From Tupaia tana (lineage: Eukaryota; Chordata; Mammalia; Scandentia; Tupaiidae): 64,000 bases of DNA. Within the stretch, counting starts at the first letter, position 1. Each line of letters opens with the position of its first letter. Below the pieces are notes generated by a model. That model made no database searches. It was not told the DNA's origin and worked only from the letters and a program-made list of their open reading frames with translations. Positions 26,463 through 63,908 of the stretch are shown in pieces. The position numbers and the translations under genes are program-made. The DNA lies in the NCBI GenBank assembly GCA_026018925.1, contig JAKSZU010000135.1, positions 1 through 64,000 of the forward strand. The letters are read 5' to 3'.

Positions 26463-27401
26463 GGGCCGGGCCTGCGTGTGGTCGCCAGGCCAGCGCGTGG
26501 CCGCCGGGCCTGCGCATGGCCCCCCGGGCCTGCGCGTGGCCGCTGGGCCGGAGCGTGGCCGCTGGGCTGGAGCGTGGCCGCCGGGCCTGAGCATGGCCGC
26601 CTGGTCTGCGCGTGGCTGCCGGGCCTGCGCCTGCACGTGGCTGCCGGCTGCAGGCAGCAAACTGAAGCTGAAAACAAGGATTAAGGACTTGCAACTACAA
26701 GCAACAGAAAGAAACTTTAGCTGTCTTAAACCAATTGAGAAATATATTGTATAGGAGGATTTTCTCTGCCTATGGAGAATGAGAAGATGATGGTTACCAG
26801 CCCTGCATTACCTCAGGGAAAAACAAGGACTACTCTACCATTCATAAGGAAGCCAGATCCCCGAGGATGACTCATGCTGCAGATCCCCACAACACCATTC
26901 CCGGTAATCACAAGATGCATGCTGTGCCGCATCAACTGATAATCATCTCTGCTTTCCAGAACCACTTTCCTGAAACTGTATTCCATGGAGACTCACCTAC
27001 AATTGCGGAACTGCACGAGACCCACCCTTAATCCAACCCTGAATAGAATCTATGCTCCCTATTGTTAAAAACTTTATGAGCTGATAATTGAAAAAAAAAA
27101 AAAAAAACTGAAAGAACTGGAAGGTATAATAGCAGGGATGGCAACTGCAGATACTAGAGACAGTATGGGAGAGGTAATGGGAATGAGTAATTGAGGGCGG
27201 AAGGGAAGGATTCAGGGAACAAACAACACACTTAATAGACACAAAAATGAAAAGTTGTCTGTTGATGATAATGTATATGGTAATATCATTGTCTTGACTA
27301 ATGTGCACTGTATTCATGCTGGGAGAGACCATGTTATACACTGTAAAGAGGTGCAATGATTAAATGTAAAAAAAAAAAGTAAACTACATTAATTATTTTT
27401 A
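26463..27401 (+). mobile_element. composite retroelement: VNTR + LTR-like + A-stretch + LINE-1 3' end
   Basis: Between the two copies of an 18-bp duplication the sequence has four blocks. The first is a GC-rich VNTR of about nine 19-20 bp units (26466-26655). The second is about 430 bp of unique sequence; its second half resembles the LTR-like block at 40530-40760 (CATCAACTGATAAT, CCTGAATAGAATCTATG, TTGTTAAAAACTTTATGA). The third is 18 A residues at 27091-27108. The fourth is a LINE-1 3'-UTR-like piece ending in an A-run at 27369-27380 and 22 further bases. No open frame is conserved. The structure points to LINE-1-driven movement in trans. The shape is analogous to primate SVA and gibbon LAVA, but the parts differ. 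Confidence 0.7.
26466..26655 (+). repeat. GC-rich VNTR, about nine 19-20 bp units
   Basis: Unit close to CTGCGCGTGGCCGCCGGGC. Lengths read by eye are 19, 19, 20, 19, 19, 19, 19, 19 and a longer last unit. It is by far the most CpG-dense patch before 62 kb. Overlapping Pro/Ala/Gly-rich frames on both strands are translations of this repeat. Confidence 0.9.
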
Positions 27402-56938: not shown

Positions 56939-57078
56939 ACATATACTTATATACAGATGCACACATACATACATATACACACATATATACATAAATATAT
57001 GTACATATATAAATATATATACACATACACATTCAACTAGAGCCATAATCAAATATCAGTTTAAATTTTGATACTTTC

Positions 57079-57744
57079 CTCTCTTCCCACTCTCTCATTT
57101 TCATATTGACGCAGTCTTTCTTTTAAATGATTATGCTCAGCGACTAACTCATATATTTCTGCTCTCTCTTTTTCATATTGATGCAGTCTTTCCTTTAAAT
57201 GATTATGCTCAGTGACTAACTCCTTATTTCTTTCTGCTCCCTCATTTTCATAGTGATGCAGTCTTTCTTTTAAATGATTACATGCAGTGGCTAACTCATG
57301 CATTTCTGCTCTCTCTTTTTCATATTGACGCAGTCTTTCCTTTAAATGATTACGTTCAGTGACTAACTCCTTATTTCTTTCTACTGCTCTCTCATTTTCA
57401 TATTGATGCAGTCTTTCTCTTAAATGATTATGTTCAGTGACTAACTCATGTATTCCTTCTCTCTCATTTTCATACTGATGCAGTCTTTCCTTTAAATGAT
57501 TATGTAGAGTGACTAACTCATCTATTTCTGCTCTCTCATTTTCATATTGACACAGTCTTTCTTTTAAATGATTACATACAGTGACTAACTCATGTATTTC
57601 TCTCTCATTTTCATATTGATGCAGTCTTTCCTTTAAATGATTACATCCAATGACTAACTCCTTATTTCTTTCTGCTCTTTCATTTTTGTATTGATGCCGT
57701 CTTTCTTTGAAATGATCAAATTCACTGAGTAACTCCTTATTTCT
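57079..57744 (-). repeat. nine in-frame 69-78 bp coding repeats
   Basis: The consensus of each unit is close to (R)NKELVTEHNHLKERLHQYENERAE. Distances between successive GCAGTCTTTC anchors (plus) are 72, 75, 72, 78, 72, 72, 69 and 75, all multiples of three. Two flavours alternate irregularly: units opening RNKEL and units opening I/M-x-EL. No stop in 222 codons. Confidence 0.95.
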
Positions 57745-58617
57745 CTTTTCCATCAAAAGACTTTGTTTTTCACTCTGAACTTGAAGGTACTGGACAATTT
57801 TACAAAGCTGATCCTGCATATCCATTGTCTTTGCTTTAGCGTCAGCTTCATTTTGAGCATTTTCCAATTGCTGTCGAAGCAACATATTTTCACTTTGTAG
57901 TCGACATATAGTCCTCTAGTCCTCTAGAGACTTTGTTTTTGCCATGTGTTTGTTCGTTTTATTTTGATATTTCAGTTCAGTTTCCTTCACTTGACCCTGT
58001 GTTTGGCTTAGCTTTCTCTCTACTTGCTCTAAAGCCAAAGTCTTTTCTCTGAGAGTTTCTTCTCTCACGTGGTGGAGTTCAGTTTGTAGGCTATTGAGTT
58101 TACTTTCAGTTTCAGAAAGTTGTTGAGAAAGACTCTCATTTTTCTCTTTCAAGTTCAACATTTCTGAATTCATTTTGTCTTGTAAGCAAGACCACTCATT
58201 TCTTGTTCTCTGGAAAGCAAGTTCTAGGTCTCTTTTTGATTTTTCATTTTGATCACGATCGCAAATAGCAGCAGCCAGTCTAGAATGGTATGATTCCACT
58301 TCTGCTTCCAGTCTTTTCTTGCTTTGCTTTTCCTTCTCCAGTTCACAATTTAACATCGTATTCTGAGTTGTTAGAACATTAAGCTCTCCACTATACTGGG
58401 ATATTGTTTTACTTAATGTTGCCTCATTCTGTTATATTGTTTTTTGAAGATCATGAGCCTTTTATTTTAGAATTTAAATGTCCTCAACATATTTCTTTCC
58501 CTTTTCTTGGTTCAGATGTTGTATTCTATCTATTTCCACTCTTAGTTCAGCAATTTCATCCTGCAATCTGGGATTTTCTCCCCACAGGTATTTTTCTATT
58601 TTATAACTATCAGAAGC
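57079..58617 (-). pseudogene. ANKRD26-like exon 1 of 8 seen: large coiled-coil exon with nine-copy repeat
   Basis: 1539 nt, exactly 513 codons, after acceptor TTTATTTAG. The first part reads SYKIEKYLWGENPRLQDEI and RIQHLNQEKGKKYVEDI, with three TAA stops at codons 48, 52 and 62. Then SQYSGELNVLTTQNTMLNCE, RLEAEVESYHSRLAAAICDR and SKRDLELAFQRTRNEW follow, and a TAG at codon 234. The next 274 codons are open: NMLLRQQLENAQNEADAKAK, then nine repeats. This is the CCDC144/ANKRD26 coiled coil. The donor expected after GAG at 57079 seems to have lost its GT (sequence GAG|GAAAG); a cryptic GT lies at 57074. The whole exon is predicted coiled coil by its heptad-like Leu/Glu/Lys pattern. Confidence 0.88.
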
Positions 58618-61908: not shown

Positions 61909-61999
61909 AGGGACCATCAGATGGTGTAGTGGTTACGTCACTGGAATGCCATGTAGTTGACTCCTATTTGAATCCCAGACCCAGTGATTTAAAAGTCAT
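61909..61999 (+). mobile_element. SINE head, cut by the LINE-1 insertion
   Basis: GGGACCATCAGATGGTGTAG to TTAAAAGTCATG, exactly the tRNA head and the first bases of the body. The rest should lie beyond the LINE-1 3' end, outside the window. Confidence 0.85.
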
Positions 62000-62234
62000 G
62001 CTACACCCCCATCTTTTGACCCCTGGGCCAGGATCTTTGAGGGAGGACTGCTCCCCAGTAGTTCCAGTCCCAGGACCCCCAGGCCAGACCCCCCTCTTTC
62101 AGCCAGGAACGCCCTCAGTTCATCCACACCACACCCCCATCTTTCGACCCCTGGGCCAGGATCTTCGAGGGAGGACTGCCCCCCAGTAGTTCCAGTCCTG
62201 GGACCCCCAGGCCAGACCCCCCTCTTTCAGCCAG

Positions 62235-62322
62235 GTACATTTTTTTCCTTTTTTTTTTTCTTTCTCTGTCCTGTTACCCACATCTTTCAATTGTAAATTT
62301 CTCTCTTCTGATCAACACACAG
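62235..62322 (+). other. 88-bp intron-like segment, copy 1
   Basis: Begins GTACAT after CAGCCAG, has a pyrimidine tract, TTCTGATCAA as a possible branch region, and ends CACACAG before GAACGCC. Absent precisely from the first monomer at 62106/62107. Confidence 0.6.
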
Positions 62323-62450
62323 GAACGCCCTCAGTTCATCCACACCACACCCCCATCTTTCGACCCCTGGGCCAGGATCTTCGAGGGAGGACTGCCCCCC
62401 AGTAGTTCCAGCCCCGGCACCCCCAGGCCAGACCCCCCTCTTTCAGCCAG

Positions 62451-62538
62451 GTACATTTTTTTCCTTTTTTTTTTTCTTTCTCTGTCCTGTTACCCACATC
62501 TTTCAATTGTAAATTTCTCTCTTTTGATCAGCACACAG
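62451..62538 (+). other. 88-bp intron-like segment, copy 2
   Basis: Same length and ends as copy 1 (CAG|GTACAT ... GCACACAG|GAACG), with two or three base differences. Confidence 0.6.
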
Positions 62539-62587
62539 GAACGCCCTCAGTTCATCCACACCACACTCCCATCTTTTGACCCCTGGC

Positions 62588-62951
62588 GAAATCGCGTGCC
62601 GCGCTAGCATGCGACTTTTTCTTTATTCTACGTATTATTTTCTTCCCAGTTTCCCAATCCTCACATCCTTTATCTGCACCATCCCTGGCTGTCCAGATAG
62701 GTCTAGAATTACAATTCTGAAACATTCTAGCATTTTAAGATTCTCTAGAATCCTCCATTTCCCTGAAACACCTGTGAAGAAGGAGATACATTTCTTTGGA
62801 CACCTGAAGTGAATACTTTTTCTTGGTTTACATTACTAAACACAATTGAAGATAGACTTCGGCTGTCTCCATTCCATATCAGAAAGGAAACACACTTGCT
62901 TCTATTAGAAGAAACCTCGTAAAAGGTTTTTCAAAGGGAACACATCTCCCA
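62588..62951 (+). promoter_or_regulatory. LINE-1 5' UTR, non-repeated part
   Basis: Starts with a CpG cluster (GAAATCGCGTGCCGCGCTAG), then AT-rich leader to the ORF1 ATG. No long frame. Confidence 0.75.
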
Positions 62952-63908
62952 ATGGGTAGAAGTACAAGAACCTCAGGCCTGAATAAAGCAGGAAATATGT
63001 CTCCATCAAAGGAACACAGTAACTCCCTTCCTGTTCCTGAAAAAATTGAGGACGTTACCAAAATGTCCGAGATAAAGTTTAGAAAATTCATGTTGAACAA
63101 GTACTATGAGCTGGAACAGAAAAGAGACAATGAATTACAGGAGATGAGAAAGTCCTTCAACGATATGAAGGAAGAAATTCTGAGGAAGAATAATACTGAA
63201 CTATTAGAGGTGAAGTCTGAAATACAGGAAATCAAAAACTCTCTTGAAAGTATTAAAAGTCGATTAGACCATGCTGAAGGTCGAATCTCTGATGTAGAAG
63301 ATAAAACTTCTGACCTAGAGAAAACCACCAAAAAGATAGAGAAAATAACAAAAAAACATGAAGATAATATATGAGAATTACTAGATTCCATTAGACGTCC
63401 TAACGCCCGAATCATTGGTATCCCAGAAGGTGAAGAAACTAATAAGAGCATGGAAAACCTATTCCATGAAATCTTGGAAGAAAATTTCCCAAACATAGAG
63501 AGGCACTCCAACATCCAGACCCAAGAAATACAAAGGACACCAAATAGAATCAACCCAAGAAGATCTTCCCCAAGGCATATCATAGCCAGACTGGCTAAGA
63601 CCACAGATAGAGATAAGATACTAAAACTAGCAAGAGAGAAACGACAAGTGACTTACAAAGGTCACCCCAGCAGGCTAACACCGGACTTCTTAACGGAAAC
63701 AATGCAAGCAAGGAAAGAATGGGAAGATGTATCGAAAGTGTTAAGAGAGAAACAATTTCAACCAAGACTATTGTATCCTGCAAGATTATCCTTCATATGG
63801 GAAAAAAAGATTAAAATCTTCTCAGACAAACAAAACCTGAAAGAATTTGCCAGCACCAGGCCAGCTCTCCATGAAACCCTGAAGAAAGTACTGTTCCAGG
63901 AAAACTAA
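62952..63908 (+). pseudogene. LINE-1 ORF1 (RNA-binding protein), one internal stop
   Basis: 319 codons in one frame from ATG 62952, interrupted only by TGA at 63372-63374 (codon 141). The N-terminal part is basic and disordered (MGRSTRTSGLNKAGNMSPSK), then a coiled coil (about codons 45-140). The RRM-type part follows, with RRPNARIIGIPEGEE just after the stop and ARLAKTTDRDKILKLAREKR. The C-terminal domain is VTYKGHPSRLTPDFLTETMQ. ORF1p forms trimers that coat LINE-1 RNA. Length agrees with mammalian ORF1p. The stop sits at the coiled-coil/RRM boundary, so this copy would make only the coiled coil unless translated through. Confidence 0.92.

Follow-up and report, generated by a model that had tools for sequence, protein, structure and literature searches.

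The promoter of a LINE-1 (L1) element in the window (the whole stretch of 64,000 nucleotides of Tupaia tana DNA analysed here) is built of tandem units, two of which contain an 88-bp block with intron-like ends that is precisely missing from the first, and the question that this raises is whether the block is an intron that was removed from the RNA of the element before that RNA was copied back into DNA. Because a 13-bp target-site duplication flanks the element on both sides, with the second copy directly behind an A-rich tail, this L1 insertion of about 6.1 kb can be attributed to retrotransposition. The following parts were recognised.

61990..62002, forward strand: target-site duplication, 5' copy, TAAAAGTCATGCT; the 3' copy lies at contig position 68093, behind the A-rich tail
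62003..62130, forward strand: promoter unit 1, short, 128 bp, beginning at unit position 1, with the spliced-type junction between 62106 and 62107
62131..62346, forward strand: promoter unit 2, long, 216 bp, consisting of exon-like 62131-62234, the 88-bp block and exon-like 62323-62346
62235..62322, forward strand: 88-bp intron-like block of unit 2, with donor CAG/GTACAT, acceptor CACACAG/G and a branch-like CTGAT near 62311
62347..62562, forward strand: promoter unit 3, long, 216 bp, adjoining the element body
62451..62538, forward strand: 88-bp block of unit 3, likewise intron-like and called the 'last intron', kept in 40 of 40 sampled insertions
62563..62586, forward strand: partial unit 4, its first 24 bp, fused to the single-copy 5'UTR
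62587..62951, forward strand: single-copy 5'UTR tail, used as the promoter-free sampling query
62952..63908, forward strand: ORF1, broken in the window copy, with open stretches at 62952-63374 and 63450-63908

The Pfam domains of L1 ORF1, PF02994 and PF17490 (RNA-binding and C-terminal), were found at 63450-63905, which corresponds to the second ORF1 open stretch. Downstream of it, in L061, there are long open stretches of 357 aa and 890 aa, which by eye are endonuclease- and reverse transcriptase-like.

The original prediction was that units 2 and 3 hold an 88-bp block starting at CAG/GT and ending in CACACAG, and that unit 1 runs directly from CAGCCAG (62106) to GAACGCC (62107) with exactly the GT...AG interval missing; both statements were borne out by comparison of the units. 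The block begins with GTACAT and ends with CACACAG. After removal of positions 62235-62322, unit 2 becomes a 128-mer with 5 differences from unit 1 in 128 positions, while unit 3 without its block has 6/128 differences from unit 1, and units 2 and 3 with both blocks removed differ from each other at 3/128. The 22-bp junction motif, searched with up to three mismatches, occurs three times in the window, namely once as the short junction and twice after CACACAG, and was found in none of 100 shuffles. A CAGG repeat is also present at both ends of the block, as had been predicted, and it allows five placements of the deletion that give the same product, exactly one of which is GT...AG. As in the spliced L1 copies of humans discussed below, the interval that is absent from the window element runs from GT to AG, and other copies still contain it.

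The splice signals of the block are conserved among the typed long units, with GT in 176/180 and AG in 169/180, and the polypyrimidine tract characteristic of U2-type introns is present. In each of the four groups into which the typed long units fall, the donor CAG/GTACAT and the acceptor TCTCTCTTCTGATCAACACACAG/G are the most frequent forms, and the donor is the top-scoring GT of the unit according to an approximate donor matrix. Positions +4 and +5 of the donor deviate from the usual consensus, and the adenine of the branch-like CTGAT lies about 11 nt from the AG, a distance that is usually larger for branch points, which makes it an uncertain branch point; no other clear branch site was seen by eye. 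The signals of the last intron are likewise intact where typed (GT in 27/28, AG in 28/28). In the second unit of one array, L048, a reverse-orientation SINE-like sequence (named by eye) lies within the 88-bp block.

Further copies were obtained from the same 2.95-Gb assembly, in which the window element sits in contig C237. Junctions next to the first and second exon parts were counted over 59 loci; some of these overlap, and units in the shared stretches enter the count repeatedly. In this census the first exon part was followed by the donor in 383 cases and by the exact short junction in 148; in three cases it was joined to the AG that lies in the following unit at position 29, while two cases resemble the short junction with point changes. 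The second exon part followed the acceptor in 381 cases and the short junction in 148, the three other contexts being a point change, an array start and a shifted match. The alternative junction, which combines the same donor with a second AG (141 bp), is the only other recurrent type besides the 88-bp junction; it was found in L055, in L057 and twice in one array of contig C1197, and in both monomer haplotypes. Deletion endpoints varying around the CAGG repeat, which had been named as a sign of a different origin, are not borne out by these counts.

The census bears directly on the explanation that the 88 bp were lost by slippage of DNA or of the reverse transcriptase between the terminal CAGG repeats. 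The repeats with their five equivalent placements fit such an event, and change at the DNA level does exist, as the duplicated insertion pairs L045/L083 and L044/L082 each differ by one whole unit; the 88-bp block itself was not lost in either pair. However, a tandem array of long units offers 285 possible deletions between 20 and 215 bp in length that have flanking repeats of at least 4 bp, 51 of them with repeats of at least 6 bp, and yet the junctions counted behind the first exon part show just two recurrent types, each of which is one of the six GT-AG deletions among the 285. Slippage also leaves unexplained that the last unit is long in every sampled insertion, and we consider it very unlikely as the source of the short units.

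The distribution of the block along the array was studied in a separate sample. The promoter query returned both L1 ends and long arrays, and it begins with a short unit itself; therefore, a second sample was drawn with the single-copy tail as the query. Two tail searches were made, the second with a query that also includes the last bases of the partial unit, and all 40 loci of the first search and three of the ten new loci of the second (L092, L093 and L007, the latter already known from the promoter search) were read. Removal of three duplicates recognised by a shared flank, L054 (the same as L053), L044 (the same as L082) and L083 (the same as L045), left 40 distinct insertions. Five of these (L041, L049, L060, L086 and L092) start beyond the fetched stretch or beside N; they were omitted from the count of first units and retained for that of last units, and L091, which is cut at its 5' side inside the block, was scored as long for the last unit. 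The searches scored the best 40 of 1,740 and 1,997 candidates, and the sample therefore represents close relatives of the window copy rather than the whole family. An earlier count of first units (29/29, P=5.6e-6) was discarded, since several of its loci came from the query that starts with a short unit and the array in contig C111 had not yet been included. The duplicates L053 and L054 (C1197:116394031 and 116385560) represent one L1 insertion present as an inverted duplicate about 8.5 kb apart, either a segmental duplication or an assembly palindrome.

In the promoter-free sample, the unit adjacent to the element body has the block in 40/40 distinct insertions. At the other end, 28 of the 29 arrays that have at least two units and whose 5' start is visible open with a short unit, the exception being L093 (LL), which supports, for this sample, the original prediction that the first monomer was the spliced one. 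The non-last units of the same 29 arrays are short in 56 of 69 cases, and the short state differs between non-last and last units with P=4e-15 if units are treated as independent. Both kinds occur among the non-last units in seven of the 29 arrays, and all seven are strictly short-then-long (P=2e-4); the probability that all seven would start short, given their make-up, is 0.0095. The order is broken in three mixed arrays of the tail sample in which the start was not reached, L041, L086 (LSSSS) and L092 (SSLSS), and over all ten mixed arrays the order test gives P=0.007 with arrays weighted equally and 0.63 with raw pairs, the latter dominated by the 29 non-last units of L041.

Individual arrays illustrate the range of these patterns. 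Two arrays appear unspliced, with no short unit, namely L093 of the sample and that of contig C111 (LLLLLL with the tail), which is outside the sample. The array L037 of the sample seemed to be all long until its extension upstream revealed one short unit before seven long ones. A copy in C1197 (L069, L020 and L006, outside the sample) has three short units followed by 29 long ones and the tail, with a promoter of about 6.6 kb, and another L1 copy with a very long promoter (L049 and L072) has at least 29 short units and one long unit. The arrays C530, C419a and C839, also outside the sample, are mixed without a clear order. Since mixed arrays without the short-then-long order exist, DNA-level rearrangement or repeated rounds must contribute to them, and whole-unit change of the kind seen between the duplicated insertions may have scrambled these arrays. 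Judged by match boundary, most of the copies compared begin at unit positions 1-3, 12-19 or 44-58.

A constant long last unit would also be expected if short and long monomers were two inherited position classes. Mouse L1 promoters of the A, Tf and Gf types consist of tandem units of about 200 bp before a single-copy part and ORF1, an arrangement which they share with the L1 described here, and they have position-dependent unit types, the distal and the proximal monomers, that differ by sequence. By analogy, the short-then-long order would have been inherited from master copies; loss of units at the 5' end would have shortened the arrays, and DNA recombination would have produced the mixed ones. 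This explanation accounts for the long last unit in 40/40 insertions, and it is favoured by the fact that short units carry the same start positions, by three arrays (L036, L049 and L055) in which the short units share a base variant absent from the last long unit, and by the greater variability of short units between loci compared with last long units in L1-linked arrays (12.6 vs 8.2). We nevertheless consider it unlikely. At the variable sites no fixed difference between short and long units was found, and for 393 units the mean differences between loci were 11.39 (short-short), 11.74 (long-long) and 11.60 (short-long), giving a net divergence of 0.03 of 128 bases. Within the two monomer haplotypes the net divergence of short and long units was 0.12 and 0.32, and among L1-linked units it was 0.09; as a control, the two haplotypes themselves were separated by 2.08 (1.46 for L1-linked units). 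Diagnostic bases that would separate a short from a long class were thus not found. The presence of the block is the one consistent difference found here, unlike in the mouse, where unit types differ by sequence and where we know of no intron within a monomer.

The relationship between the two kinds of unit was also followed within individual elements. The majority haplotype was the same for short and long units in 27/27 loci where both could be typed, and in 10/36 elements a rare variant was shared between the element's own short and long units, as against 64/1,260 pairs drawn from different elements. When 36 elements are placed on a tree by their tail and ORF1 sequences, 12 changes are required for the short state of the penultimate unit, compared with a mean of 12.2 for shuffled labels; the state is scattered on this tree, which is weakly supported, with 2/33 inner branches starred. 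Inherited position classes are difficult to reconcile with the concordant haplotypes, with a penultimate state that does not appear to be inherited on this weak tree, and with copies in which one or three short units precede a run of 7 or 29 long units. The simplest reading of these comparisons is that short units would be made anew from long ones. Pure recent derivation from long units does not predict the excess variability of the short units; a heterogeneous source array, or partial inheritance of short units, would explain both this excess and the variants of L036, L049 and L055.

The same data argue against a reversed order of events, in which the original unit had 128 bp and the proximal unit later gained the 88 bp by an insertion that duplicated 4 bp of its target, the enlarged unit then spreading. 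An 84-bp sequence with CAGG on each side does resemble an insertion, and the proximal unit has the block in all 40 insertions. However, the short units would then need to have acquired the same haplotype changes as the long units in parallel, and there would be no reason to expect long arrays to open with short units at their 5' side. The suggestion that the short monomer is an older, ancestral class of 128 bp was therefore not borne out, given a net divergence near zero, concordant haplotypes in 27/27 loci and a short state scattered on the weak tree, and we regard this order of events as extremely unlikely. Both this explanation and slippage are disfavoured by the junction census, the count of 285 possible deletions, the divergence and haplotype data, the tree and the shared rare variants.

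Taken together, the observations suggest that the RNA of these L1 copies is usually spliced before it is copied back into DNA, and very probably the array RNA is spliced with the last intron spared and the product is retrotransposed, each monomer acting as an exon and an intron. In the long monomer, an 88-nt intron would interrupt an exon of 128 nt. Transcription would start within the array, in keeping with the unit positions at which copies begin, and the RNA would consist of alternating short exons and introns that lead into a terminal exon of about 5.5 kb, which comprises the tail, ORF1, ORF2 and the 3' end. The spliceosome, which we infer to be the agent, would take out introns, most often including the first one, and would leave in place the intron ahead of the long terminal exon; reverse transcription of the spliced RNA and insertion would follow. 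Splicing before reverse transcription would explain together four features that can be read directly from the DNA, namely the exact GT-AG ends of the missing interval, the second acceptor used with the same donor, the recurrence across haplotypes and the short state of the first unit. That the last unit is long is observed just as directly, and as the last intron has intact signals and is nevertheless missing from 0/40 insertions, splicing needs an extra rule. The last intron is probably spared because the exon of about 5.5 kb, without a downstream donor, would be poorly defined, the upstream exons being only 128 nt; the general background to this proposal is the exon-definition model. The CAGG and GCCAGG repeats would allow slippage at these junctions as well, which counts against the splicing explanation, as do the two unspliced arrays, the mixed arrays without order and the deviating donor positions +4 and +5. 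Short arrays may be poor promoters, in which case long-unit arrays would be the main source copies, and this would account for the absence of a distinct lineage of short units.

Splicing of L1 RNA has a known counterpart in the human SpIREs (spliced integrated retrotransposed elements), of which Larson et al. (2018, PMC5860796) report 131 among 6,609 annotated full-length L1PA1-L1PA6 copies (about 2%), with splicing of human L1 RNA described there as rare and mostly a dead end and SpIREs as poor promoters. As in the SpIREs, which arise by retrotransposition of spliced RNA, the 5'UTR lacks an exact donor-to-acceptor interval and one donor is used with several acceptors. In contrast to the SpIREs, which lack one interval per copy, the putative intron here lies in a tandem promoter monomer and could be removed several times per RNA; furthermore, compared with the roughly 2% of human copies, the block is missing from the first unit in 28/29 sampled multi-unit copies, while the last block is spared. 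Chimeric LINE-1 copies that arise by splicing in cis or in trans are treated in another report, where intron content is discussed as a bypass of HUSH (PMC13174262); these likewise involve RNA shaped by splicing before insertion, but they join host-gene exons to L1, whereas the candidate intron here is L1's own. No report of a monomer-encoded L1 intron was found in the open-access literature within the terms searched. The system thus resembles the human SpIREs, with the apparently repeated intron and the common outcome as the new aspect.

Long transcripts that lack introns are silenced by HUSH, and the presence of introns works against this silencing even if they stay unspliced, according to a study in which a spliced stuffer sequence gave no protection (PMC8770142); in view of this last result, a short intron need not protect. 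As a tentative proposal, this L1 lineage could possess an array of introns of its own, with 29 of them in one copy, and lose them mostly from the 5' side while the last one is spared; the introns may give its RNA a host-like appearance that serves export or helps against HUSH. It is equally speculative that each round costs introns, so that most progeny would be intron-poor and only long-unit arrays would be lasting sources. Splicing appears to be the common fate of this L1 lineage, written into the repeated promoter unit. The removed introns are recorded in each genomic copy as in a natural experiment, and rules of splicing that concern the first intron, the last intron and the long terminal exon could be read from DNA. 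This also makes testable the idea of a retrotransposon that uses its own introns to evade a defence against intronless transcripts.

The promoter unit was also encountered outside the L1 copies described above. Pure runs of the 216-bp unit, forming satellite-like arrays, occur in contigs C71, C700, C771, C846, C650, C1138, C975 and C231 (loci L016-L019, L021-L023, L025-L030, L077 and L078), several of them in small contigs; those in C975 and C231 exceed 7 kb. In C397 (L005/L008) and in C419 near 15.67 Mb (L013/L067), the 3' end of the array enters other sequence, with no match to the L1 tail in the stretch examined, and these are apparently promoter arrays without an element body.

Two further features of the window lie upstream of the L1 element. 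On the minus strand, positions 57061-57915 contain an open frame of 284 aa with coiled-coil repeats of about 24 residues, corresponding to a 72-bp DNA repeat in nine copies; the frame matches Pfam CCDC144C (E 2.2e-49) and represents an expanded exon or a pseudogene of that family. A G+C-rich tandem repeat of 19 bp, in 8.7 copies, is located at 26465-26630.
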